From assembly GCF_021533215.1 (NCBI RefSeq), contig NZ_JAJNKA010000014.1:118543-182542 (forward strand): a stretch of DNA of 64,000 bases. Direction: 5' to 3'. How positions within the stretch are numbered: the stretch's first letter is position 1; every line of letters starts with the position of its first letter. Both the position numbers and the translations under genes were made by a program. The DNA comes from Portibacter lacus. GTDB lineage: Bacteria; Bacteroidota; Bacteroidia; Chitinophagales; Saprospiraceae. Positions 51,930 through 64,000 of this stretch are shown here, in pieces. The notes under the pieces are model-generated. The model had not been told where the DNA came from. It saw nothing but the letters and a program-made list of their open reading frames with translations, and searched no databases.

Positions 51930-53645
51930 ATGCTTAAGATTTTCGACCTATTCCACAAGAACAAAAGACACATCGGCATCAATTTTACGGGTGGACAAAC
52001 AATTAAATCCAAACTGCTAACATTGGACAATATAAGTTATACTGCCACACATACTTGTTACTATATCCCTTACTCTATTCAAGACTATGCAGCATTAAGA
52101 GCGTTAAACATTCCATATACTATTATCACAAGTGGTACCGCTGAAGCATCACCTTCTCTAAGCGATAATTCCACCATAGAAGTAAAAGCTTCGACTCTAG
52201 AAACTCCTAAACCTGAGATCACTCAGCTGGATTCTAGCATAAGTCTGGGAAAAGCACATATCCCTGCAATCTCATGGAGTGGAAAGGCTTTCATTACGAA
52301 TATATCTTACGAACTTGAAGCGGTAACATTTCTTAAGTCACTCAAAGGGAGTTACTGGCATAGTGAAAATAAAGTATGGGTTGTGAAATCAAATATTGAA
52401 AACCTAAAGTCATTGCAGAACTATTTCGCTGGATGGACTGAAGAAGAGTATTTGAAACTATTTGAATTGATCAATTTACAAATGAACCCTCGGATAATAG
52501 AAATATATCTAAGTCCCGAGCGGATCAAATTCATTTATGTAAAACTCCGTGGTTTTGGGATCGATGTATCATTCATTAAAACCTTTGCACACAGAGAATA
52601 TGACAAAGAATTCAAGCGGTGGATTCTACCTTTAGAAAAGGAAACAATAAAAAAGATCACAGACCATTATGAAAAATTAGGCGTTAAGATTATCAATAGA
52701 ATTCCTAAAAAAGACATTGGAGAGTACTACGTTGCGAATCGGAGCATTAAGAGCAAACTATCTTATCTACTTAGCAAATTCCCTAGCTCTTTTCCTGAAA
52801 TCCTAGCAAAATATGTTGATGTCATGTTGCTTCAAAACTACAGTTGGCGCACCATCCAGTCCTACACTGGAAAAATGGCTAAATTTATGGCCCATTACGG
52901 AGATATTTCCATTGCAACCTTAGAAGCGGATGAAGTCAATAAATACTTGACTAAAATTGCACAGACTGGAGTTTCCGAAAGTCTAATCAACATAACTTTA
53001 AGTGCTATTAAGTTTTACTATGAAAAAGTAGAATATAGAAGTAATTTCCATATTGAGCGCCTTGTCCGTCCGAAGAAAGGAAAGTATTTACCAACTATTT
53101 TAAGTGAAGTGGAAGTCGATCGAATTTTTAGGTCAATGTCAAACCTAAAACATTTATGCATCGCATATACCATATACGGCGGCGGATTACGGTTGAATGA
53201 GGTCTTAAATATTAGAGTCCAGGACATCATTTGGGACCGAAATCAAATAATTCTAAAGCAAGCTAAAGGGAATAAAGATCGGATGACGTTGCTGAGTCAT
53301 ACATTGAAGGAGTTAATGAAACGATATATTGAAGAATATCAACCAGAATATTGGTTATTTGAGGGACTCAACAGAAAAACAGCTTATTCATCAAGTAGTG
53401 TACAAAAGATAATTAAAGAAAGTGCCAAAAAAGCAGGTATTAAAAGAAAGGTAACGCCACACACATTACGGCATTGTTTTGCAACGCACTTATTGGATCG
53501 CGGCACAGATATTCGCTTTATCCAAGAATTACTAGGGCATAAGGATATAAAGACGACATTAGTGTACACCCATGTCACCACACGCAGCATGGATAACATC
53601 CAAAGTCCACTTGATCGATTAGGAAAAAATATAACGGAATTGTAA
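51930..53645 (+). CDS. Tyrosine recombinase of the cassette array (non-IntI, with N-terminal extension)
   Basis: 571 residues; about 320-340 is usual for IntI and about 300 for XerC/D. The C-terminal part is a full tyrosine recombinase: core-binding domain about 285-370 and catalytic domain about 385-560, with Arg421 (GGGLRLNE), Lys446 (AKGNKDR), His511/Arg514 (HTLRH), His537 (LLGHKD) and nucleophile Tyr546 (VYTHV). It ends in 'QSPLDRLGKN', like the 'RSPLD' ends of IntI. However, Lys446 to His511 is only 65 residues (72 in E. coli XerD), so the IntI-specific insertion is absent. Residues 1-260 hold two or three repeats of the form W/Y-x4-5-K-x-W-x-x-P (143-150, 224-231). The gene reads toward the array, 42 nt from its first junction. 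Confidence 0.9.
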   Translation: MLKIFDLFHKNKRHIGINFTGGQTIKSKLLTLDNISYTATHTCYYIPYSIQDYAALRALNIPYTIITSGTAEASPSLSDNSTIEVKASTLETPKPEITQLDSSISLGKAHIPAISWSGKAFITNISYELEAVTFLKSLKGSYWHSENKVWVVKSNIENLKSLQNYFAGWTEEEYLKLFELINLQMNPRIIEIYLSPERIKFIYVKLRGFGIDVSFIKTFAHREYDKEFKRWILPLEKETIKKITDHYEKLGVKIINRIPKKDIGEYYVANRSIKSKLSYLLSKFPSSFPEILAKYVDVMLLQNYSWRTIQSYTGKMAKFMAHYGDISIATLEADEVNKYLTKIAQTGVSESLINITLSAIKFYYEKVEYRSNFHIERLVRPKKGKYLPTILSEVEVDRIFRSMSNLKHLCIAYTIYGGGLRLNEVLNIRVQDIIWDRNQIILKQAKGNKDRMTLLSHTLKELMKRYIEEYQPEYWLFEGLNRKTAYSSSSVQKIIKESAKKAGIKRKVTPHTLRHCFATHLLDRGTDIRFIQELLGHKDIKTTLVYTHVTTRSMDNIQSPLDRLGKNITEL

Positions 53646-53675
53646 AAGTTGGAACGATGTATATATATTAGTGGG

Positions 53676-53700
53676 GATAAAGGTGAGTTATCTTCCATAT
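53676..53700 (+). other. Candidate attI (first cassette insertion point)
   Basis: The crossover G is 53687 in AGGTGAG^TTATCTTCC. The right side (GTTATCTTCC) matches the reverse complement of the first cassette's own R'' box (GTAAGATAAC) at 9 of 10 bases, so 53687/53688 is the left end of cassette 1. Unlike the attC sites, no folded hairpin lies to its left, as expected for attI. It is 42 nt downstream of the recombinase stop, on the 3' side of the gene; in classical integrons attI lies at the 5' side of a divergent intI. Confidence 0.75.
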
Positions 53701-54346
53701 TTTAGATTCTTACAGAAACTTAAGTGTAGATTTTCAATAGAGAAAAAACTAATAGTGGTCTTGATTTGAGTGAACACCTTTCGATATTAGATGTAAATTC
53801 TTAGTATTTTTTTGCTCTTCTGGTTTTTTCACACAATCTGTTGTTCTCGCGAGGAAGACTCGACTCAATGCCCTCCGATTTTTATAGACCTTTTCATGCT
53901 TGGCGTTTGCGCTGATCTGGAGATTATATTTTATTTGCAATTTCGATTTTCACTAATACAATCGCCACCACTCTCTTTTAGCAGCCATCTCTCAAATTTT
54001 TTTCCATGCTCGGTATTCTTTCCCTGAGCTTGAAGTAGATCTCTATAAAAGTAAGATTCTTACTAAATCTTATTGGCTAGCAATTGTTTAACACCGATAT
54101 CCAAATTATTTTCCATGATTAATCAACTTCACAATTAAACCTAGCTGCTCAAATTGGTGTCAAAAATAAATTATTGCGACATAAAGTTTAAGTCCATATA
54201 CAAGTTAAAAACAATGAACGTAAGATAACAGGCGATAAGGAAGTAATTTCGCCTTGATAGGTACTTGTCGATATGCAGTTCGAAAAAATTATTAATTTTA
54301 GAGGTAACGAATAGTGGAAGGCGAAACTCCTCCTATCGCGATACCG
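53688..54346 (+). other. Cassette 1, non-coding
   Basis: 659 bp from the attI junction to the first attC junction. The only open frames (63 aa on minus at 53749-53940; 71 aa on plus at 53812-54027) overlap each other and show no family features. I call no gene. The sequence is not obviously related to type A or B cassettes outside its attC. Confidence 0.7.
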
Positions 54347-54352
54347 TTAGTG
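54223..54352 (+). repeat. attC 1 (long type, 130 bp)
   Basis: R'' AGATAAC, left stem GGCGATAAGGAAGTAATTTCGCC, a ~55-nt loop ending TTTAGAGGTAACG, right stem GGCGAAACTCCTCCTATCGC, a short spacer and R' GTTAGTG. The two stems pair with a few extrahelical bases. It ends cassette 1. Confidence 0.85.
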
Positions 54353-54369
54353 AGAATTAAAAATCAATA

Positions 54370-55059
54370 ATGCGAAATCCTGAAGAGCTAAATCAACTAA
54401 TTGAGAATGAATTGCTGCAAAAGACAAATTTTTCGATTGCTTATAAACAAATTATTAATAATGAATTCATGCAAAAGAAATTTGAAGCTCATGTTGGAAT
54501 TAAATGGCAATATTGTGGCATAATAGCAGCATATAGTGGTGTTGCTTTCAGAGACCTAAATCCCTGCTTAAGATCCAAACACTATAAATGTGATAGAAGA
54601 TATGTCAATATACTTTCGGAATTACTAACAGAGTCAATTAACCAACTCCAACAAATGAATGAAGTTGTATTATGCAGAAACGAAGGTCATGTAAACATGG
54701 ATAAAGTCTCACAATGGTATGTTGACCATGTTGGAAATTCTGTTACCTACCCTGGCTTTACTTCAACATCACTAGATTGGCAACCTGTTGAAGATAGAGT
54801 TATATTTAAAGTTAAAACGAAAAAAAATAGTTCAAAAGCAAGAAATATAATACCAGTACTTGAAATCTTTCAACCTGAGAGAGCTAAAAATGAGAAGGAG
54901 ATTCTTTTTGATAAAGACACAACTTTTCTAATTGAGAAAGTAGAAGCCGGAATAATATTCTTATCAGAGATAGATAAATCTAAAGGAAGTTTAAAACTCA
55001 CAAATTGTTACTGGAATTTCTCTGACAAACGACAACAAGATATATTTAAAGATGAATAA
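54370..55059 (+). CDS. Putative mono-ADP-ribosyltransferase (cassette 2, gene 1)
   Basis: The 229-residue product shows the R-S-E pattern of toxin-like ADP-ribosyltransferases: Arg103 in 'VVLCRNEG', Ser132-Thr-Ser134 in 'YPGFTSTS', and Glu175-Lys-Glu177 in 'KNEKEILF' (E-x-E, with Glu177 as catalytic candidate), followed by 'TTFLIEKVE'. Such enzymes transfer ADP-ribose from NAD+ to proteins or nucleic acids and occur as toxins and in anti-phage systems. No signal peptide is seen, so it acts inside the cell unless delivered by other means. It starts 24 bp after the cassette junction and overlaps the HEPN-like gene by 8 nt, so the two are translated together. The family call is by motif only. 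Confidence 0.72.
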   Translation: MRNPEELNQLIENELLQKTNFSIAYKQIINNEFMQKKFEAHVGIKWQYCGIIAAYSGVAFRDLNPCLRSKHYKCDRRYVNILSELLTESINQLQQMNEVVLCRNEGHVNMDKVSQWYVDHVGNSVTYPGFTSTSLDWQPVEDRVIFKVKTKKNSSKARNIIPVLEIFQPERAKNEKEILFDKDTTFLIEKVEAGIIFLSEIDKSKGSLKLTNCYWNFSDKRQQDIFKDE

Positions 55060-55639
55060 ATTTATCAAATACCTAAAAGAAAGGAGATATCATGGAGATA
55101 TTTCAAATTATAAAAATGATTTAGGTCAGTTTGAAAGTGATTTCGAAAAGACCTTTAATTACATTGGAATTTTTCTCAATCAAAATATAATTATAGAGCA
55201 ATACCTTGATGATATTTTGGAATTGCATTTAGCCAAAAATAGGAGTGGAATTAATGGTGCTGCATTTAAATCATTACTACTAAATGGAAGATTTTTTAGT
55301 ATTCATGAAAAACAAAAAATGTTCGGCGATTTAACTAAGTCTACATTCTTACTTTTTAATCTTGTTAGAAAAGATAAATCAAAAAATATTAGGAAACTAA
55401 TTTCAGAAGTAATAGCCCATAGAAATATTATAGCACATAATCGATTTGGAATAGATGTGAATAGTAAAAATCCGATTTTTAAATATTACGAAGGTGGGAA
55501 AATTAAAGAGTATGAATTATCAGAGGAAAAAATGGGAGAAAATCTTGATAATGGAAATATTGTTATTGAATTTCTGCAGGAATTTAAAATTAAATTAAAG
55601 AAACATGAAGATAAAATAGCTCAAAAAAACTCTCACTAA
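55052..55639 (+). CDS. HEPN-like protein (cassette 2, gene 2)
   Basis: The 195-residue, mostly helical protein has 'EVIAHRNIIAHNRFG', containing Arg124-x4-His129, the R-x4-6-H motif of HEPN ribonuclease-type domains. It is paired with an upstream ADP-ribosyltransferase gene (8-nt overlap) within one cassette, an arrangement that suggests a toxin-antitoxin or defence pair. By analogy with HEPN-MNT, where the partner modifies the HEPN protein, the transferase might modify this protein; that is inference. Its TAA stop lies inside the R'' box of attC 2. Confidence 0.65.
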   Translation: MNKFIKYLKERRYHGDISNYKNDLGQFESDFEKTFNYIGIFLNQNIIIEQYLDDILELHLAKNRSGINGAAFKSLLLNGRFFSIHEKQKMFGDLTKSTFLLFNLVRKDKSKNIRKLISEVIAHRNIIAHNRFGIDVNSKNPIFKYYEGGKIKEYELSEEKMGENLDNGNIVIEFLQEFKIKLKKHEDKIAQKNSH

Positions 55640-55700
55640 CATGCCGAGATCACTGAATCCTTCCTTCGGTCGGACTCAGGATTCAGCTATCACGTTGTGC
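55634..55700 (+). repeat. attC 2 (short type, 67 bp)
   Basis: R'' CACTAAC; stem CTGAATCC/GGATTCAG; inner loop containing CCTTCCTTCGG; spacer CTATCAC; R' GTTGTGC. It ends cassette 2 (54347-55694). R'' is perfectly complementary to the first bases of its own cassette. Confidence 0.85.
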
Positions 55701-55726
55701 TTCATTAAGACTAACCAAAATAACCA

Positions 55727-56488
55727 ATGATAAAATTCTTTAGAAAAATTAGACAAAAGTTGCTCTCTGAAAATAAATTCAGCAAGTATCTAATTTACTC
55801 AATCGGAGAAATTATGCTTGTTGTTATAGGAATTCTGATTGCACTACAAATTAATAACTGGAACGAATCGAATAAGGATAGAGAATTGGTGAAAACCTCA
55901 CTAACATCTTTGAAAGTGAATTTGAACGAAGATATCAAAGACCTAAATAAGCAAATTAGCTATAACAAAAGCCTTCTGGATAATATAGATTTTACATTAA
56001 AACTTATTATTTCGCCAAAATTTGAAAATAAGCCTCTCTCCGTTTTTGCTGACAGTATTGGTGATTTAACAAATGAAAGGTTATTCTTGCCAAATATTAC
56101 CACTTTTAAGTCAATGGAATCGGGCTCAATTTTTCCTCTCATAGCTGACCAGAAATTTAAAGAATCTATATACAAATATTATGTGCATCTCGAAAAACTT
56201 TCAAAAATTACAAACGAAAACAATCTATTTGTAAAGAAACATGTTGAGGATTTTGTATATAATGAAATGGAGCTCGGCACCTTCTTCCCTAAATCTAATC
56301 CACACTCGATGAATAGGGATTTACAATTGGATAATACTAATTTATTCAGAAACAACCCTGCATTCGAGAATGTATTGATTGGAAGAAAGTTTCGTGCGGG
56401 AGGAGAAATCTATACGTCCGAGAATGCTATTGTGGTGGCAAATGAATTGATAGAACTTATTGATTATTATTTGGAGTTAAATGATTAA
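55727..56488 (+). CDS. DUF6090-like membrane protein (cassette 3)
   Basis: The 253-residue product begins with the strongly conserved Bacteroidota pattern 'MIKFFRKIRQKLLSENKFSKY' followed by one membrane helix (about 25-43, 'IGEIMLVVIGILIALQINNW'). A mainly helical soluble region of about 200 residues comes after it. The family is present in many paralogs in marine Bacteroidota; function unknown. It is the sole gene of cassette 3 (55695-56564), starting 33 bp after the junction and ending 16 bp before its attC. Confidence 0.8.
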   Translation: MIKFFRKIRQKLLSENKFSKYLIYSIGEIMLVVIGILIALQINNWNESNKDRELVKTSLTSLKVNLNEDIKDLNKQISYNKSLLDNIDFTLKLIISPKFENKPLSVFADSIGDLTNERLFLPNITTFKSMESGSIFPLIADQKFKESIYKYYVHLEKLSKITNENNLFVKKHVEDFVYNEMELGTFFPKSNPHSMNRDLQLDNTNLFRNNPAFENVLIGRKFRAGGEIYTSENAIVVANELIELIDYYLELND

Positions 56489-56503
56489 AAAGAAATAACG
56501 AAA

Positions 56504-56570
56504 GCACAACAATGAAGATGACGTAACTCTAGCTATCGCGTCGAGTATCCGCATCTTCTTACCGTTATAT
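56504..56570 (+). repeat. attC 3 (short type, 67 bp)
   Basis: R'' GCACAAC; stem GAAGATGACG/CGCATCTTC with extrahelical bases; spacer TTACC; R' GTTATAT. It ends cassette 3. R'' is complementary (9/9) to the start of cassette 3. Confidence 0.82.
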
Positions 56571-57109
56571 CCTAGCCATGTAGATCGAGTACCAGCTCTA
56601 ACATTCAAATTAGGCGGCCGCTCTTCTGCACAAATTAAGTGAGATCGAGCGTATTCTGCTTAAACTTTCACACTAAGTACACATGCAAACTTGCAAAAGC
56701 GGCTTACATGCAAATCGAGGAAAAACTAGACAATGCAAACTCGATCTACAGAAATTAAGTACATGTGTACCAATTCAAACATTCAAATTAAACGCCTGCT
56801 CTTTCAAATTAAACATGAGCGTCTTCATTATTATCATGCAAATTAGAATTATTCTCAAACTTGAATAAGCGGCTCGCAAATCTAACATGAGCGTCTTCAT
56901 TTTAGTCTTGCAAAATAAACTTAAACCCAACATGAATAGACGGCTCGCAAACCAAACATGAATTCAGCAAGGAAAAGGGCCAGAATATAACAGGCGATAA
57001 AGAAGTAATTTCGCCAGTAAAACACCATTGACATATTTCATTTCTAAAAAATGTTTAGTTTTATTGACGAGAAGCAGTGAGAGGCGAAACTCCTCTTATC
57101 GCGTTCCCG
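56565..57109 (+). other. Cassette 4, non-coding, with 72-bp internal repeat
   Basis: 545 bp without a credible gene. AACATGAGCGTCTTCATT occurs at 56812-56829 and 56884-56901, and GGCTCGCAAA at 56871-56880 and 56942-56951, giving about two copies of a 71-72-bp unit. The one open frame (56683-56868) runs across repetitive sequence and I do not call it. Confidence 0.7.
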
Positions 57110-57115
57110 TTAGTC
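56985..57115 (+). repeat. attC 4 (long type, 131 bp)
   Basis: R'' ATATAAC; left stem GGCGATAAAGAAGTAATTTCGCC; right stem GGCGAAACTCCTCTTATCGC; spacer GTTCCC; R' GTTAGTC. It ends cassette 4. R'' matches the reverse complement of its own cassette's start over seven bases. Confidence 0.85.
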
Positions 57116-57125
57116 ACAAGGAAAA

Positions 57126-57950
57126 ATGAAAAACAGGATCACAAATATTATGATTGTTCTTTTGACACTCTTGGGTTGCCAAGAACATGAAATCCTAAAC
57201 AACATTAAGATCGTAGATCATATTGATTCATTAGATTGTACTAAGCAAAAACTGACTATCAAAATTGACGAAGCCGGTAAATTATTAGACACAATTCAAA
57301 TTTCTGAGATTAAGGAAAATAAAAATGGAGTGAAATTATTCCAAAAGAATATCAATGATAATGGCGAGACTATATCAGAAATTTACTTTTGGGAAGAAGA
57401 TAGCGAGCCTTTTTTAACCATTACAAACAACGATAAAATAGACCTTCATGTAACAGTAGAATTGTTCAAGAATTCAAAGGGAGACATAGCGGAATTACTG
57501 GTTACAGAAAGTTCTAACGGCAAGATTGATTCTTTCACTTCAAACTATATTAGAACTCATAATATTTTTGGCAAACTGAGGACTATTGAAACAACTTCAG
57601 CTGAAGAAATAAAATCGTTTTCTATTTTTGATAAAGGAAAAGTAGTTTTAGATCTTATAATCATGGAAAATGACACAACGAAAAGAACAGAATATAAGTA
57701 CAGTGACGACAAACTTGAAAGTTCAGAATCTTATAGTTATCTCGGTGATTCAACAATCAGCGTTTCAAAATATATAGATACCAAATTAAGTTCTACCCAA
57801 TTTTATGAAATCGAAAACTCTAGGTCCATACTTCAATCTGCGGTCATTTACCATTATGACGAACAAAGCAAACTAAGTTCGTATATTTCAACAGATTATG
57901 AGACAAATAAAACTGATTCTATCATTATCAAATACCAACCCTGTGACTAA
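57126..57950 (+). CDS. Putative lipoprotein of unknown function (cassette 5)
   Basis: The 274-residue product has lipobox 'LLTLLGC' (Cys18) and then a beta-rich region with repeats of strand-turn-strand type ('ISEIYFWEEDSEPFLTITNN', 'TKRTEYKYSDDKLESSESYSY'), suggestive of a small beta-sandwich or RHS-like strands. No family recognised. It begins only 17 bp after the cassette junction, leaving no room for its own promoter. Its TAA stop is inside the R'' box of attC 5, so the gene fills the cassette exactly. Confidence 0.75.
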   Translation: MKNRITNIMIVLLTLLGCQEHEILNNIKIVDHIDSLDCTKQKLTIKIDEAGKLLDTIQISEIKENKNGVKLFQKNINDNGETISEIYFWEEDSEPFLTITNNDKIDLHVTVELFKNSKGDIAELLVTESSNGKIDSFTSNYIRTHNIFGKLRTIETTSAEEIKSFSIFDKGKVVLDLIIMENDTTKRTEYKYSDDKLESSESYSYLGDSTISVSKYIDTKLSSTQFYEIENSRSILQSAVIYHYDEQSKLSSYISTDYETNKTDSIIIKYQPCD

Positions 57951-58010
57951 CATTATGCATGAAGTAATTCCTCCTATCGTCGGAACTCCTCATGCATTTG
58001 GACGTTATAC
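57945..58010 (+). repeat. attC 5 (short type, 66 bp)
   Basis: R'' GACTAAC; stem ATGCATGAAGTAATTCC/GGAACTCCTCATGCAT with extrahelical bases; spacer TTGGAC; R' GTTATAC. It ends cassette 5 (57110-58004). R'' with flanking bases is complementary to the start of its own cassette (10/10). Confidence 0.87.
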
Positions 58011-58651
58011 TTAATGAATTGACTCCGTCAATTCATCTATGGTGGTACTTAGCCATTTAAAACGCTCAATTCCTTGAAACTTTTTTCGGTCGAGACTAGA
58101 ATTTTGTCAGGAGAAGACGATCAACTTTAACGCGCGCCAGAAAGCAAACCAAACGAGTTCATTTCCTTCAATTCGATAACCAAATCTTGCAACGGTAAAC
58201 TCATCTTTGTCTTTACTCAATTACTCAAATGTGATTTTACTTATTCAGCTTTTCTCTTAACGAATACGGAAACCTTCAACTTTCGCGCTTACAGTTAATC
58301 TAGCAACTTTGGTCACTCCAATCCAATCGTTCAATCTTGTCATGTTCCAACTCGTCTTCTCTTTCGTATTGGCGTTAACTCGACCGAAAAAAGTAGGCCA
58401 ACGCATCGATCTTTGCGAGTCAGATCTTAAATGTTCAACGTATTTATCTCCGTTTGTAGCTTTTTTTTGAACTTACGAATGGCAAACGCAATCGTGTGTC
58501 ATAAGATTTCTTTTTATCACTAAGTATAACACGCGATTAAGAAGTGAATTTCGCCTTAAATAATTCTTACTCCAACACATTTTGTCTAAAATTATAATAA
58601 CTTTAGAAGTAACGATTTGCGGAAGGCGAAACTCCTCTTATCGCTATCACG
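58005..58651 (+). other. Cassette 6, non-coding type A, copy 1
   Basis: 647 bp. Starts TTATACTTA and then a 10-bp perfect hairpin (ATGAATTGAC-TCC-GTCAATTCAT, 58014-58036). A 16-bp perfect inverted repeat (ACTTTTTTCGGTCGAG at 58079-58094; CTCGACCGAAAAAAGT at 58379-58394) encloses 284 nt. No conserved open frame exists among the copies. A structured RNA or DNA element is possible. Confidence 0.8.
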
Positions 58652-58657
58652 TTAGAG
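58524..58657 (+). repeat. attC 6 (long type, 134 bp)
   Basis: R'' GTATAAC; left stem GCGATTAAGAAGTGAATTTCGCC; right stem GGCGAAACTCCTCTTATCGC; spacer TATCAC; R' GTTAGAG. It ends cassette 6. Confidence 0.87.
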
Positions 58658-59289
58658 TGCCACTAATAAAACGATCGCGCAAAAAACCAATGTATTTTTA
58701 ATGTTTATGGTTTCGAATAAATCCACCTTCAAAAAAGCGACACACCTTGCTTATTCAAATGGTTTTTACGCTTGCGATAAGCCTTTGGCATAATTCTGAT
58801 TTCTACTCCAATGAGTTTTTTTGCTCCACACTCATTTCATCCAAACTTCAATGCTCGCACCGAAAGCTGAGTTTGATTTGGCTCCGTCCAACATTAGAGA
58901 TTCGGCTCCTAGCGCAAAACAAACGTTTGACTAGAACGAAAACCTAAACAGCAAAATACGCCTCACCTACCTTATTTGTTATCGCTAAACTCCAATGCAC
59001 GATTCCTGCTCTTATGCTTTCTTGCCCTACGCGCGTTTTTCACTAAATCAGCACTATCCTGCTCAATAAGCGAACATTTGTGGCTTTCAATTCATCTCTG
59101 TTCGGCGCTCGGCACTAATTATTCGTCAACTGTAAACGTATTCCTAAACTTAAAAAAAGCGGCATCTAACATGCGATTAAGGAGTAATTCCGCCTTAAAT
59201 AATTCCCACTCCAATACGCATTTCGTAAAATTGTTTATTTTTAGAGGTAACGTTAGGCGGAAGGCGAAACTCCTCTTATCGCTAAGACG
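58652..59289 (+). other. Cassette 7, non-coding type B, copy 1
   Basis: 638 bp, starting TTAGAGTGCC. Nearly identical to cassette 8. Open frames at 58747-58947 and 58976-59293 are not preserved in the second copy, and the latter runs through the attC, so I call no gene. No similarity to type A is evident outside the attC. Confidence 0.8.
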
Positions 59290-59295
59290 TTAGAG
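59164..59295 (+). repeat. attC 7 (long type, 132 bp)
   Basis: R'' ATCTAAC; left stem GCGATTAAGGAGTAATTCCGCC; right stem containing GGCGAAACTCCTCTTATCGC; spacer TAAGAC; R' GTTAGAG. It ends cassette 7. The match to the cassette start (GTTAGAGTGCC versus GGCATCTAAC) is interrupted by a one-base gap. Confidence 0.85.
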
Positions 59296-59926
59296 TGCCA
59301 CTAATAAAACGATCGCGCAAAAAACCAAGGTATTTTTAATGTTTATGGTTTCGAATAAATCCACCTTCAAAAAAGCGACACACCTTGCTTATTCAAATGG
59401 TTTTTACGCTTGCGATAAGCCTTTGGCATAATTGAGATTTCTACTCCAATGAGTTTTTTTGCTCCACACTCATTTCATCCAAACTTTAATGCTCGCACCG
59501 AAAGCTGAGTTTGATTCGGCTCCGTCCAACATTAGAGATTTGGCTCCTAGCGCAAAACAAACGTATGCATAAACGAAAACCTAAACAGCAAAATACGCCT
59601 CACCTACCTTATTTGTTATCGCTAAACTCCAATGCACGATTCCTACTCTAATACATTCTTGCCCTACGCGCGTTTTTCACTAAATCAGCACTATCCTGCC
59701 CAATAAGCGAACATTTGTGGCTTTCAATTCATCTCTGTTCGGCGCTCGGCACTAATTATTCGTCAACTGTAAACGTATTCCTAAACTTAAAAAAAGCGGC
59801 ATCTAACATGCGATGAAGGAGTAATTCCGCCTTAAATAATTCCCACTCCAATACGCATTTCGTAAAATTGTTTAATTTTAGAGGTAACGTTAGGCGGAAG
59901 GCGAAACTCCTCTTATCGCTAAGACG
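59290..59926 (+). other. Cassette 8, non-coding type B, copy 2
   Basis: 637 bp, a direct neighbour of and near-identical to cassette 7, with scattered single-base changes (for example GATTCGGC for GATTTGGC) and a small indel. The tandem pair suggests duplication or repeated insertion. Confidence 0.8.
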
Positions 59927-59932
59927 TTATAC
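59801..59932 (+). repeat. attC 8 (long type, 132 bp)
   Basis: R'' ATCTAAC; left stem GCGATGAAGGAGTAATTCCGCC; right stem GGCGAAACTCCTCTTATCGC; spacer TAAGAC; R' GTTATAC. It ends cassette 8. Confidence 0.85.
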
Positions 59933-60573
59933 TTAATGAATTGACTCCGTCAATTCATCTATGGTGGTACTTAGCCATTTCTAACGCTCAATTCCTTGAA
60001 ACTTTTTTCGGTCGAGACTAGAATTTTGTCAGGAGAAGACGATCAACTTAAACGCGCGCCAGAAAGCAAACCAAACGAGTACATTTCCTTCAATTCGATA
60101 TCCAAATCTTGCAACGGTAAACTCATCAATGTCTTTGCTCAATTGCTGAAAAGGTGTTTTTATTAATTCAGTTTTTCACTTATTCGATACGGAAACCTTC
60201 AACTTTCGCGCTTACAGTTAATCTAGCAACTTTGGTCAATCCAATCCAATCGTTCAATCTTGTCATGTTCCAACTCGTCTTCTCTTTCGTATTGGCGTTA
60301 ACTCGACCGAAAAAAGGATGCCAACGCACCGATCTTTGCGAGTCAGATCTTAAACGTTCAACGTATTTATCTCCGCTTGTAGCTTTTTTTAGAATTTACG
60401 AATGGCAAACGCGATCGTGTGTCTTAAGATTTCTTTTTATCACTAAGTATAACACGCGATTAAGAAGTGAATTTCGCCTTAAATTATTCCTACTTCAACA
60501 CATTTTACCTAAAATTATATAACTTTAGAGGAAACGATTTGCGGAAGGCGAAACTCCTCTTATCGCTATCACG
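59927..60573 (+). other. Cassette 9, non-coding type A, copy 2
   Basis: 647 bp. The same layout as cassette 6; the inverted-repeat arm reads CTCGACCGAAAAAAGG, so the helix is shortened to 14 bp. A 122-aa open frame (60154-60522) appears only in this copy and is taken as chance. Confidence 0.8.
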
Positions 60574-60579
60574 TTATAG
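60447..60579 (+). repeat. attC 9 (long type, 133 bp)
   Basis: R'' GTATAAC; stems as in attC 6; R' GTTATAG. It ends cassette 9. Confidence 0.87.
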
Positions 60580-60643
60580 ATCATTTTTTTAACCCGAGTG
60601 AAGTATGGGACTTGATTCTTGTGAAGAATATTAAATCATTAAA

Positions 60644-61087
60644 ATGCGGATTGACAAATCAAATAAATCTGAAAAATTAAGAAATTTTGCAGCCTGGGTA
60701 GAGACCTTAGATGAAAGGATAATTGATTGGCTCAACAATTTAGATACTTCAACAAAAATCAAGATGAATTTCTCAATCGATTCCCTCGATGAAGTTGAGA
60801 AGTTTTTGATTAAGAATTTCACATTAGATTCGCTCAATGTTCAATCAAACAAATATGCAATTGATGGAATAGCATCTTATGTTTTGAAAGTATTTGAAAA
60901 ACACTGGAATCCATCACAGTATACGATCGAGCTTGATGACCCAAAGAATATACTCTTTAACAGGCCGGCTATAATAACTCAACCTCAAATAGGAGCTGCT
61001 TTCAGTCCTTACATGTTTATTAGTGGCATAATCAACCTAAAAAGAATTGGGATCTTAAGAAAAAACTTAGAGTCTAGAATGAAATAA
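60644..61087 (+). CDS. Hypothetical protein (cassette 10, gene 1)
   Basis: The 147-residue product is mostly helical, with 'LDERIIDWLNNLDTSTKIKMNFSIDSLDEVEKFLIKNFTLD' in its first half and a more hydrophobic C-terminus ('GAAFSPYMFISGIINLKRIGIL'). No signal peptide and no family recognised. It starts 71 bp after the cassette junction. The following gene in the same cassette starts 94 bp later and has its own leader, so co-transcription is likely but coupling is not. Confidence 0.65.
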   Translation: MRIDKSNKSEKLRNFAAWVETLDERIIDWLNNLDTSTKIKMNFSIDSLDEVEKFLIKNFTLDSLNVQSNKYAIDGIASYVLKVFEKHWNPSQYTIELDDPKNILFNRPAIITQPQIGAAFSPYMFISGIINLKRIGILRKNLESRMK

Positions 61088-61181
61088 TAGCCAAATTGTG
61101 ATATGACAAAACCTTCAACTCGATAACAATGCACTTTCGAAATCATATACACAACTTAATTGAGCTGTACGTTAAAATATT

Positions 61182-61898
61182 ATGAAAAGAAAAACCAATA
61201 TTCAGGAATTTAAAATTGCCAATTCTTGTACTGCTGATTGGAATAAAATGAGTAATGATGAAGCAAATCGACATTGCCAATTATGCAATAAAACTGTTTA
61301 TGATTTTACTAATCTAAAAGAAAATGAAATAATTGACTTCTTTGAAAACCAACATAAACAAGCAAGCAAGACATGCGGTAGATTCAACAAAGATCAACTA
61401 AAGGGTATAAATCTAAGTCTAAACGGCAAATCCAATTATTTAACTCGTGTATCTCCAATTCTTGTTGGACTTATGCTTACAAGTGCAAGTTGTAAAGTAT
61501 ACAAACAAGACCAAATTGTTTGCAATGAGCATATCTCAACAATTGAAATACTCGATCAACTAGATAGTTCTAATCTAGCAGAAAACAAGATTTACGGTCA
61601 GATCTTAGATGAAAATAATGAGCCTCTTCCTTTTGCCACAGCACATATTAAAGGTACCGAACGAGGAGTTGAATCAGACTTCTACGGTAAATTTGAATTA
61701 GACATCAGTGGATTAGATCTTAATGAAACCTATTTGCAAACAAGCTATATTGGATACCATTCATTTGAAGTTAAGTTATTTGATATTAAAGAGAATAAAT
61801 TTAAAATTACCTTAGCTGATCCTCGAGAATTAATGGGAGACGTTATTGTTGTATATAAACCACGAATAAAGAATATATTTAAACGCAAAACAAATTAA
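61182..61898 (+). CDS. CarboxypepD_reg-like protein with N-terminal Cys domain (cassette 10, gene 2)
   Basis: The 238-residue product opens with the Bacteroidota Cys-rich pattern 'CTADWNKMSNDEANRHCQLCNKTVYDFTNLKENEIIDFFE...CGRF..QL'. A membrane or lipobox-like stretch follows (about 90-105, 'ILVGLMLTSASC'), then a CarboxypepD_reg-like beta domain from about 135 ('IYGQILDENNEPLPFATAHIKGTERGVESDFYGKFELDI'). The beta domain is like those of TonB-dependent receptors and envelope proteins. The function of this stand-alone form is unknown. Confidence 0.8.
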   Translation: MKRKTNIQEFKIANSCTADWNKMSNDEANRHCQLCNKTVYDFTNLKENEIIDFFENQHKQASKTCGRFNKDQLKGINLSLNGKSNYLTRVSPILVGLMLTSASCKVYKQDQIVCNEHISTIEILDQLDSSNLAENKIYGQILDENNEPLPFATAHIKGTERGVESDFYGKFELDISGLDLNETYLQTSYIGYHSFEVKLFDIKENKFKITLADPRELMGDVIVVYKPRIKNIFKRKTN

Positions 61899-61905
61899 GA
61901 ACGAT

Positions 61906-61971
61906 CTATAACATGCGACATCGCATAAGCCTTCCTTCGTCTGGCCTCTGGATGTCGCTATCCCGTTATAC
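61906..61971 (+). repeat. attC 10 (short type, 66 bp)
   Basis: R'' CTATAAC; stem GCGACATC/GATGTCGC; loop containing CCTTCCTTCG, as in attC 2; spacer TATCCC; R' GTTATAC. It ends cassette 10 (60574-61965). GATCTATAAC is a 10/10 reverse complement of the cassette start, so both genes between belong to a single cassette. Confidence 0.87.
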
Positions 61972-62613
61972 TTAATGAATTGACTCCGTCAATTCATCTA
62001 TGGTGGTACTTAAGCCATTTATAACGCTCAATTCCTTGAAACTTTTTTCGGTCGAGACTAAAATTTTGTCAGGAGAAGACGATCAACTTTAACGCGCGCC
62101 AGAAAGCAAACCAAACGAGTACATTTCCTTCAATGCGATAACCAAATCTTGCAACGGTAAACTCATCAATGTCTTTGCTCAATTGCTGAAAAGGAGTTTT
62201 TATTTATTCAGATTTTCACTTAATGAATACGGAAACCTTCAACTTTCGCGCTTACAGTTAATCTAGCAACTTTGCTCTCTCCAATCCAATCGTTCAATCT
62301 TGTCATGTTCCAACTCGTCTTCTCTTTCGTATTGGCGCTAACTCGACCGAAAAAAGTTGGCCAACGCACCGATCTTTGTGAGTCAGATCTTAAACGTTAA
62401 ATACATCAATCTCCGCTTGTAGCTTTTTTTAGAATTTATGAATGGCAAACGCAATCGTGTGTCATAAGATTTCTTTTTATCACTAAGTATAACACGCGAT
62501 TAAGAAGTGAATTTCGCCTTAAATAATTCCTACTCCAACACATTTTACCTAAAATTATATAACTTTAGAGGTAACGATTTGCGGAAGGCGAAACTCCTCT
62601 TATCGCTATCACG
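61966..62613 (+). other. Cassette 11, non-coding type A, copy 3
   Basis: 648 bp, near-identical to cassette 6, with the same initial hairpin and inverted-repeat arms (TTTTTTCGGTCGAG ... CTCGACCGAAAAAA). Confidence 0.8.
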
Positions 62614-62619
62614 TTATAC
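62487..62619 (+). repeat. attC 11 (long type, 133 bp)
   Basis: R'' GTATAAC; stems as in attC 6; R' GTTATAC. It ends cassette 11. Confidence 0.87.
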
Positions 62620-63258
62620 TTAATGAATTGACTCCGTCAATTCATCTATGGTGGTACTTTAGCCATTTCTAACGCTCAATTCCTTGAAACTTTTTTCGGT
62701 CGAGACTAGAATTTTGTCAGGAGAAGACGATAAACTTTAACGCACGCCAGAAAGCAAACCAAACGAGTACAATTCCTTCAATTCGAACACCAAATCTTGC
62801 AACGGTAAACTCATCTTTGGCTTTGCTCAATTACTCAAATGTGATTTTACTTATTCAGCTTTTCTCTTAACGAATACGGAAACCTTCAACTTTCGCGCTT
62901 TCAGTATACTAGCAACTTTGCTCTCTCCAATCCAAGCGATCAATTTTATCATGTTCCAACTCGTCTGCTCTTTCGTATTGGCGTTAACTCGACCGAAAAA
63001 AGTAGGCCAACACACCGATCTTTGCGAGTCAGATCTTAAACGTTAAATACATCAATCTCCGTTTGTAGCTTTTTTTAGAATTTACGAATGGCAAACGCAA
63101 TCGTGTGTCATAAGATTTTTTTTATCACTAAGTATAACACGCGATTAAGAAGTGAATTTCGCCTTAAATTATACCCACTCCAACACATTTTGTCTAAAAT
63201 TACATAACTTTAGAGGTAACGATTTGCGGAAGGCGAAACTCCTCTTATCGCTATCCCG
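62614..63258 (+). other. Cassette 12, non-coding type A, copy 4
   Basis: 645 bp, directly following cassette 11 and near-identical to it apart from scattered base changes and short indels. Confidence 0.8.
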
Positions 63259-63264
63259 TTATAT
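63132..63264 (+). repeat. attC 12 (long type, 133 bp)
   Basis: R'' GTATAAC; stems as in attC 6; spacer TATCCC; R' GTTATAT. It ends cassette 12. Confidence 0.87.
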
Positions 63265-63906
63265 TAGAATAAATTGACTCCGTCAATTCATTCTAGTTGT
63301 ACTTAGGCCATTTCTATCGCTCAATTCCTTGAAACTTTTTTCGGTCGAAGCTAAAATTTTGTCAGGAGAAGACGATCAACTTAAACGCGCGCCAGAAAGC
63401 AAACAAAACGAGTGCAATTCCTTCAATTCGATAACTAAATCTTGTAACGGTAAACTCATCTATGGTTTTGCTCAATTGTTGAAAAAGTGTTTCTATTTAT
63501 TCAGATTTTCACTTAATGAATACGGAAACCTTCAACTTTCGCGCTTACAGTTAATCTAGCAACTTTGCTCAATCCAATCCAAACGTTCAATCTTGTCATG
63601 TTCCAACTCGTCTTCTCTTTCGTATTTTCGTTAGCTCGACCGAAAAAAGTATGCCAACGCACCGATCTTTGTGAGTCAGATCTTAAACGTTCAATATATC
63701 AATCTCCGTTTGTAGCTTCTTTTTGAATTTACGAATGGCAAACGCAATCGTGTGTCTTGAGATTTCTTTTTATTACTCTATATAACACGCGATTAAGAAG
63801 TGAATTTCGCCTTAAATAATTCCTACTCCAACACATTTTACCTGAAATTATATAACTTTAGAGGTAACGATTTGCGGAAGGCGAAACTCCTCTTATCGCT
63901 ATCACG
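63259..63906 (+). other. Cassette 13, non-coding type A, copy 5 (variant ends)
   Basis: 648 bp. Differs from the other type A copies at its very start (TTATATTAG) and, matching this, at its own R'' (CTATATAAC instead of AAGTATAAC). The 5' inverted-repeat arm is also changed (GGTCGAAGCTAA) together with the 3' arm (TTAGCTCGACC). Confidence 0.8.
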
Positions 63907-63912
63907 TTATAC
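63780..63912 (+). repeat. attC 13 (long type, 133 bp)
   Basis: R'' ATATAAC; stems as in attC 6; R' GTTATAC. It ends cassette 13. R'' is complementary to the variant start of cassette 13 over seven bases. Confidence 0.87.
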
Positions 63913-64000
63913 TTAATGAATTGACTCCGTCAATTCATCTATGGTGGTACTTAGCCATTTAAAACGCTCAATTCCTTGAAACTTTTTTCGGTCGAGACTA
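63907..64000 (+). other. Cassette 14, type A, copy 6 (cut by the window edge)
   Basis: The first 94 bp match the starts of the other type A cassettes, including the hairpin and the 5' inverted-repeat arm. The array therefore extends beyond the window. Confidence 0.75.

Follow-up and report, generated by a model that had tools for sequence, protein, structure and literature searches.

An integron-like cassette array in Portibacter lacus beside a tyrosine recombinase without the I2 insertion of IntI

The stretch of DNA analysed here, referred to as the window (64,000 nucleotides of Portibacter lacus, Saprospiraceae; assembly GCF_021533215.1, contig NZ_JAJNKA010000014.1, positions 118,543 to 182,542 of the forward strand), ends in a tyrosine recombinase gene followed by an array of cassettes (51930..64000). 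From its sequence, this region is predicted to be an integron, and its recombinase, which lacks the IntI-specific insertion I2, likely captures and excises the cassettes itself through folded single strands of their attC sites. The locus would be a new variant of integron, having the attI, the attC array and the own-start pairing of the integron platform and an enzyme that does not pass as IntI.

The recombinase gene (571 aa, 51930..53645, + strand) encodes a Phage_int_SAM_4 domain (residues 292-370) and a Phage_integrase domain (residues 391-551). It adjoins an attI-like site, the core of which, GGGGATAAAGGTGAG^TT, lies at 53673..53689 (+ strand) with the crossover after G53687, 42 nt past the recombinase stop codon (53645). 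Behind it, 13 complete cassettes follow in a single direction (+ strand), each terminated by an attC site, with junctions at 54346, 55694, 56564, 57109, 58004, 58651, 59289, 59926, 60573, 61965, 62613, 63258 and 63906 on the + strand; others were found on further contigs. Each attC unit is built as R''-short spacer-L'' ... L'-spacer-G^TT-R', and two length classes occur in the window (about 66-67 nt and about 130-134 nt). Over a length of 8 nt, the R'' box of cassette 1, AGATAAC (ending at 54229), matches in reverse complement the start of this cassette at 53687. The window stops at the contig end, and its 13 cassettes are accordingly no more than the opening portion of a longer array. The sole Rfam match in the window at gathering scores was a tRNA.

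All catalytic residues of the enzyme are present (R421, K446, H511, R514, H537 and Y546), and the spacing from K to H is 65 residues, compared to 105-106 in 12 canonical IntIs (one truncated). At the IntI-specific I2 region the enzyme has 42 residues fewer than VchIntIA (PDB 2a3v), which was also the top Foldseek match (E 1.1e-16), and the sequence match to 2a3v is interrupted at profile position 464-487 (chain 179-244). These results bear out the sequence-only reading of this DNA, which had described a complete catalytic set without I2. The IntI model TIGR02249 gave 230.4 bits in two pieces, below its cut-off of 265 bits, compared to 411-484 for five canonical IntIs, and the XerC and XerD models (TIGR02224 and TIGR02225) gave 170 and 173 bits, below their cut-offs of 335 and 330. 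The enzyme therefore shares the R-K-H-R-H-Y set with IntI, and lacks the insertion, the 265 bits and a place in the I2-bearing clade described below.

The movement of cassettes as units was assessed with an own-start test. After integration via a circle, the R'' box is expected to be complementary to its own cassette's start, as opposed to that of the following cassette, because a free circular cassette joins its end (R'') to its own TT... start. In all 11 informative cassettes of the window, R'' fitted the own start better than the next (6-10 against 3-6 consecutive nt); the remaining two of the 13 were uninformative, own and next starts being identical. Such pairing is the expected mark of units that would have moved through a closed circle with a complete attC, and the array is confirmed as first proposed, with a single attI, 13 attC sites, uniform orientation and G^TT junctions. 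Among 101 sites from the source and other genomes, chosen for 9-10 own-start nucleotides by a filter that excluded pairing over more than 10 nt, 72 paired over 10 and 29 over 9, a few of the 101 being spurious. Run on 1.17 Mb of shuffled sequence, the attC finder, which required at least 9 complementary nucleotides and a stem, gave 59 matches. The final 12.1 kb of the window alone gave 7, and other loci of the source genome gave more (7 in L158, 7 in L159 and 6 in L160, of 8.1-9.8 kb, and 1 in L161, of 4.7 kb), a few of them spurious by eye.

For extrahelical bases placed on the L'' arm of the folded attC, the count was 19 against 3 in the source genome and 14 against 9 in other genomes, and the same count in shuffled attC interiors was 108 against 121. 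No structure was obtained with RNAalifold when 26 of the 32 short attC sites were aligned by plain MAFFT. A covariance model was built from 18 attC sites of other genomes only, one of the 19 candidates (L244, probably false) having been removed by hand. In the window, this held-out model placed 56504-56570 first (E 0.0025), with another true site in fourth place (E 1.3), and its 11 other matches up to E 10 were non-sites; the covariance search that had been proposed as a check thus recovered two of the 13 sites and missed 11. Over 15 loci of the source genome, all 15 matches (E≤5) fell within L157, L158, L160, L163 and L287, the last of which was counted as an array stretch partly on these matches themselves; there was no match in L162, L164, L165, L166, L171, L172, L285 and L286, nor in the array contigs L159 and L161. 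Over 32 loci of relatives the model gave 4 matches. Because of this low sensitivity, the scoring of arrays relied on the own-start test.

The mechanism proposed for the locus is as follows. An attI beside the gene together with cassettes joined at G^TT would form an integron platform run by the I2-less recombinase. The substrate would be a folded single attC strand, as suggested by paired boxes that differ from cassette to cassette but stay complementary; one attC strand would be cleaved at its G^TT and then linked to the attI at 53687. The grip of I2 would be supplied otherwise, most likely by three HARP-like units in the N-terminus, because HARP (SMARCAL1) and the similar XPB damage-recognition domain act on forked or irregular DNA. 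Unit 1 (residues 1-68, 51930..52133, + strand) is predicted to fold as strand-strand-helix-strand-strand-helix, with a Pfam HARP match nearby in the homolog P0046. Unit 2 (about residues 108-170, 52251..52439, + strand) is a predicted unit with motif similarity by eye, and unit 3 (about residues 185-260, 52482..52709, + strand) is a predicted unit at the place where P0021, P0025 and P0038 have Pfam HARP matches. These four homologs were slightly above the cut-off of Pfam HARP (PF07443), which makes 4 of the 120 listed homologs, and P0014 and L074 were below it. The window recombinase gave no match to Pfam HARP at E≤1, and the match of the N-terminal fold to the HARP structure 4o66 was weak (E 0.27). 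According to these fold predictions, the N-terminal HARP-like repeats may grip the folded DNA in place of I2.

The same locus could also be read as an ordinary Xer-like recombinase acting on double-stranded attC and attI without any folding. Xer proteins lack I2 as well and typical tyrosine recombinases use double strands, as described in PMC7790495, and the enzyme reaches about 170 bits with the models of XerD and XerC too. This explanation is nevertheless unlikely, since the R boxes differ (the 14 starts in the window comprise 9 distinct 10-nt sequences) with own-cassette pairing maintained, the L and R boxes seen by eye have no common sequence that could be read in a double strand, and attC stems are maintained across genera, an observation that is partly circular since the sites had been chosen for stems.

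A conserved stretch of the long attC was searched across the source genome, a draft assembly with 43 contigs whose completeness the tool put at 100%, giving 30 matches compared to 0 for the reversed control pattern. It was located on contigs C5, C6, C18, C20, C21, C23 and C26, as well as close to the beginning of C32, which opens with 124 bases of a cassette family of about 645 bp. Own-start sites were present on L157-L161, L163 and L287. The array is probably large and was split by the assembly because its cassettes repeat. In addition, more attC-like sites away from the recombinase were observed on the 153-kb contig C6, at about 60.3-64 kb and 130-146 kb (L163, L287); these would be a further array lacking an integrase, or a portion of one that was rearranged.

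Relatives of the recombinase were collected from a scan of genome contigs (80 of 247 relatives kept) and from whole-genome searches, which at E≤1e-45 gave a match in 195 of the 396 genomes searched in the order and in 107 of the 394 genomes of a phylum sample; 60 further stretches were hand-picked for long contigs. The 141 loci contained 8 duplicates, leaving 133 non-redundant loci, with a long N-terminus in 33, a shorter one in 51, none in 17, canonical IntI in 12, another recombinase in 8 and a partial gene in 12, the last two groups being excluded from the array statistics. Under a strict array test (at least 9 own-start nucleotides, a stem, and a cassette start within a fixed zone), 27 of the 101 full-length I2-less loci were positive (7 with a long, 13 with a shorter and 7 with no N-terminus), compared to 4 of 101 for wrong-strand zones and 4 of 101 for one shuffle each. 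Among the 13 shorter-class loci, L039 was positive on the wrong strand too and is probably false. Chains of at least two cassettes were found at 12 of the 101 loci and in neither control. The longest chains were those of L272 (5 cassettes, single-contig genome G518) and of L034, L074 and L277 (4 each), followed by L240 (4, the last doubtful) and L278 (3, single-contig genome G731). Only 3 of the 12 canonical IntI loci passed, which indicates that the test is strict, and the window array itself fails it. The homolog search called for by the sequence-only reading thus found I2-less relatives repeatedly beside attC arrays, in Bacteroidota and beyond.

A looser look added arrays at L225, L235, L236, L242, L252, L250, L268, L276, L280, L053 and others, and found none at L023, L029, L048, L237, L241 and L247 or in a termite-gut subclade. 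Contigs ended within 1.5 kb downstream of the gene in 16 of 33 long-N-terminus loci and upstream in 1 of 33; for the shorter class these values were 14 and 9 of 51, which is not significant. No convincing array accompanied a subclade of I2-less enzymes with one N-terminal unit (L046, L049, L050, L051, L054, L039, L041 and L042), several of which come from gut Bacteroidales; these enzymes may serve another element. Two closely similar recombinase genes, one with a shorter N-terminus, were observed on two contigs (L028, L033) of the Saprospiraceae bin Tobar13m-G19.

The attI motif TATA-N3-6-AGTT was found within 150 nt past the stop codon in 20 of 32 long-N-terminus loci, compared to 1 of 32 upstream, 0 of 32 inside the gene and 1.25 upon shuffling. 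The corresponding count was 14 of 51 in the shorter class, with controls of 3, 3 and 1.5, and it was 0 of 17 for enzymes with no N-terminus and 1 of 12 for canonical IntI. The window attI is a variant, GGGGATAAAGGTGAGTT, of this motif and is caught only by a looser pattern, which is frequent by chance (24 of 32 versus 10.1). When 23 loci (20 motif-picked and 3 hand-picked) were aligned on GTT, the mean pairwise identity was 0.61 over the 15 nt before it, a value inflated by the picking, and 0.38 after it. In the close pair L021/L023, the identity was 0.82 over 40 nt up to the G and 0.32 after it, and L026/L027 retain a common first cassette. The contigs of L024 and L233 stop within 1 base of the attI GTT. 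At L029 (bases past 11791) the motif reads TATAAGGAAGATG, the GTT is lost, and no array was found within 10 kb downstream, so judged from its sequence this is perhaps a natural dead attI.

As for mobility, two closed plasmids typed as mobilizable, NZ_CP012644.1 of Rufibacter tibetensis and NZ_CP111080.1 of Pontibacter kalidii, both carry a 484-aa I2-less relative (K-H spacing 64) followed by short genes in the same direction. The Rufibacter tibetensis plasmid has 2 separate cassettes, the first 132 nt past the stop codon, and one extra match on the wrong strand; the Pontibacter kalidii plasmid has 3 consecutive cassettes with 10-nt own-start pairing, beginning about 1 kb past the stop codon. 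Modules of attC of 58-59 nt that are 91-98% identical occur in the source genome and, in other genera, at L034 and L240, with different cargo. Acinetobacter and related plasmids (H10-H12) were also observed to encode a protein whose catalytic part shows 48% identity, annotated as TnpF in one record.

These comparisons bear on whether the array and its recombinase are inactive relics. Nine of the 13 cassettes lack a long ORF, many are near copies, and the array is absent in some relatives, as relics would be expected to look; the reading frame and catalytic residues are however intact, the sharp fall in identity after the G in L021/L023 looks as if first cassettes had been exchanged, and nearly identical attC modules carry different cargo in other genera. 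Decay of the system is accordingly improbable, and activity of the I2-less recombinase on its own cassettes remains the preferred reading.

To place the recombinase among its relatives, a careful tree was made from 60 of 123 proteins picked by hand, the long-branched outgroup rows L094, L095 and L004 being omitted. The I2-less enzymes and canonical IntI formed one integron-like clade (100/99), in which canonical IntI was a nested branch (100/100) with the window recombinase outside it. Canonical IntI grouped with the I2-less proteins L069 (Nitrospirota) and L081 (Woesearchaeota) at 98/91, and the I2-less proteins formed one clade in 0% of bootstrap trees. The outgroup rows are likewise without the insertion (K-H spacing 56-76), and a quick tree of all 123 proteins agrees in recovering the integron-like clade and IntI as a single clade. 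The simpler reading of these sequences, by parsimony on the careful tree, is one integron-like radiation in which I2 would have been added later in one branch of older I2-less enzymes. That arrays preceded I2 is a hypothesis, with the deepest forks weakly settled.

The sequence-only reading had suggested that the recombinase could belong to a separate lineage in which folded-site recombination arose independently, for which the missing I2, the extra N-terminal region and the common direction of gene and array could speak. This proposal was not supported by the tree, where IntI is nested in the I2-less radiation, and the attC anatomy and G^TT junction are identical to those of IntI systems; an independent origin is therefore very unlikely.

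Another possibility is recombination by IntI from elsewhere. The short class of relatives (about 275 aa, lacking both I2 and the N-terminal units) has a divergent array at L058, L060, L062 and L269, beginning 77-86 nt upstream of the start codon and running opposite to the gene. Of the array genomes checked, 3 in a set of 23 and 2 in a set of 7 had a canonical IntI (TIGR02249 above cut-off), and all five belong to the short class (5 of 8 short-class genomes checked), whereas none was found in the 22 checked array genomes with an N-terminally extended recombinase, the single-contig G518 and G731 included. The short class is for this reason weak evidence and the extended class strong evidence. 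The search for a canonical IntI in the source genome that the sequence-only reading had named as a check gave no match above the cut-off in its 43 contigs. That a canonical IntI in trans recombines the array and the adjacent recombinase is a bystander, for which the co-occurrence in the short class and the draft state of the genome could speak, is very unlikely, given the empty search of a genome estimated as complete, the 22 extended-class genomes without IntI, and an array starting at an attI motif positionally fixed to the I2-less gene.

The cargo of the window array is mixed. Cassette 1 (53688..54346, attC 54223..54352; this and all following features on the + strand) has 659 bp without a long ORF. 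Cassette 2 (54347..55694, attC 55634..55700) carries an ADP-ribosyltransferase-like ORF (54370-55059) and a second ORF (55052-55639), for which no Pfam family, HEPN included, was found at E≤0.01. Cassette 3 (55695..56564) encodes a DUF6090 protein (55727-56488), and its attC (56504..56570) is the top window match of the held-out model. Cassette 4 (56565..57109, attC 56985..57115) has 545 bp and no long ORF; short degenerate direct repeats with units of 37, 54 and 33 nt were observed in it at 56589-56961. Cassette 5 (57110..58004, attC 57945..58010) encodes a 274-aa protein (57126-57950) without a Pfam match at E≤0.01, and cassette 10 (60574..61965, attC 61906..61971) contains a 147-aa ORF (60644-61087) and a CarbopepD_reg_2 protein (61182-61898). 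The ADP-ribosyltransferase (PF03496), DUF6090 and CarbopepD_reg_2 proteins pass their Pfam cut-offs, and of the cargo named earlier from the sequence these three stood and HEPN found no support at the threshold used.

The nine cassettes without a long ORF (1, 4, 6-9 and 11-13) have ATG ORFs that never exceed 85 codons. Cassette 7 (58652..59289, attC 59164..59295) has 638 bp, and cassette 8 (59290..59926, attC 59801..59932) is a close copy of it. Cassettes 6 (58005..58651, attC 58524..58657), 9 (59927..60573, attC 60447..60579, longest ATG ORF 85 codons), 11 (61966..62613, attC 62487..62619), 12 (62614..63258, attC 63132..63264) and 13 (63259..63906, attC 63780..63912) belong to the ORF-less family of about 645 bp, which has 16 near-full-length copies in the genome with 86-100% identity to 62614-63258 (the query counted); the cassette after attC 13 is interrupted by the contig end. 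Every window copy of this family (58005-58651, 59927-60573, 61966-63906) was also observed to open with a short inverted repeat, AATTGACTCCGTCAATT. In Vibrionaceae, gene-less cassettes bearing promoters are reportedly found, and promoter or RNA cassettes are possible functions of the 645-bp family.

Arrays of attC with an I2-less recombinase and no IntI make the account of I2 acquisition directly testable: either I2 is dispensable, or another module, such as the HARP-like units, performs its work. The I2 helix is held to have enabled single-strand recombination by docking extrahelical bases, according to PMC7790495; PMC9024848 likewise distinguishes IntI by an extra domain and names one complete Bacteroidetes integron in its dataset (Salinibacter ruber). 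Archaeal and earlier integron surveys demanded the IntI-specific domain, according to PMC9668308 and PMC2426708. Integrons of Bacteroidota and those of the Rufibacter tibetensis and Pontibacter kalidii plasmids would then count as integrase-less arrays or be missed. In the open-access literature no description was found of I2-less recombinases serving attC arrays, and no HARP-bearing integrase was found, although no search combined HARP with integrase. The textbook definition of the integron is probably too narrow. We tentatively suggest, at somewhat less than even confidence, that I2-less enzymes, many with a HARP-like grip, ran attC capture first, that I2 came later, and that a whole class, common in Bacteroidota and present on plasmids too, was missed by surveys demanding I2. 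Judged from its sequence, the enzyme would add a new candidate to the single-strand recombinases available for gene shuffling.

Compared with canonical integrons (VchIntIA, 2a3v; class 1 IntI1), the window has the same attI by the gene, R''-L''-L'-R' attC sites, G^TT junction and one-direction array, and its enzyme has the same SAM_4 core-binding and Phage_integrase domains, its top Foldseek match and a common clade with IntI. It differs in lacking I2, in having three HARP-like units, in scoring 230 bits against the required 265, and in the shared direction of gene and array. In the reverse integrons of Treponema, integrase and array also run in the same direction, a likeness to the window. 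The IntIs of Spirochaetota are "generally in reverse orientation" in PMC9668308, and unlike the window enzyme they were accepted by its filter requiring the IntI-specific domain. Unlike XerC/XerD and archaeal XerA (5hxy, 4a8e), the window enzyme is far below the Xer cut-offs and adjoins attI and an attC array; in the source genome, one protein (L002) passes the XerD model and another (L003) is nearest to XerC, and both fall outside the integron-like clade. The N-terminus resembles SMARCAL1 HARP (PF07443, 4o66) and XPB in its predicted fold, with four homologs above the Pfam cut-off, although the matches are weak and the units are fused here to a tyrosine recombinase and not to a helicase. In the "integron-like" subgroup of Smyshlyaev et al. 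2021, the insertion is incompletely conserved and is called "essential for integron function" in PMC8138268; in contrast, the I2-less members described here adjoin attC arrays.

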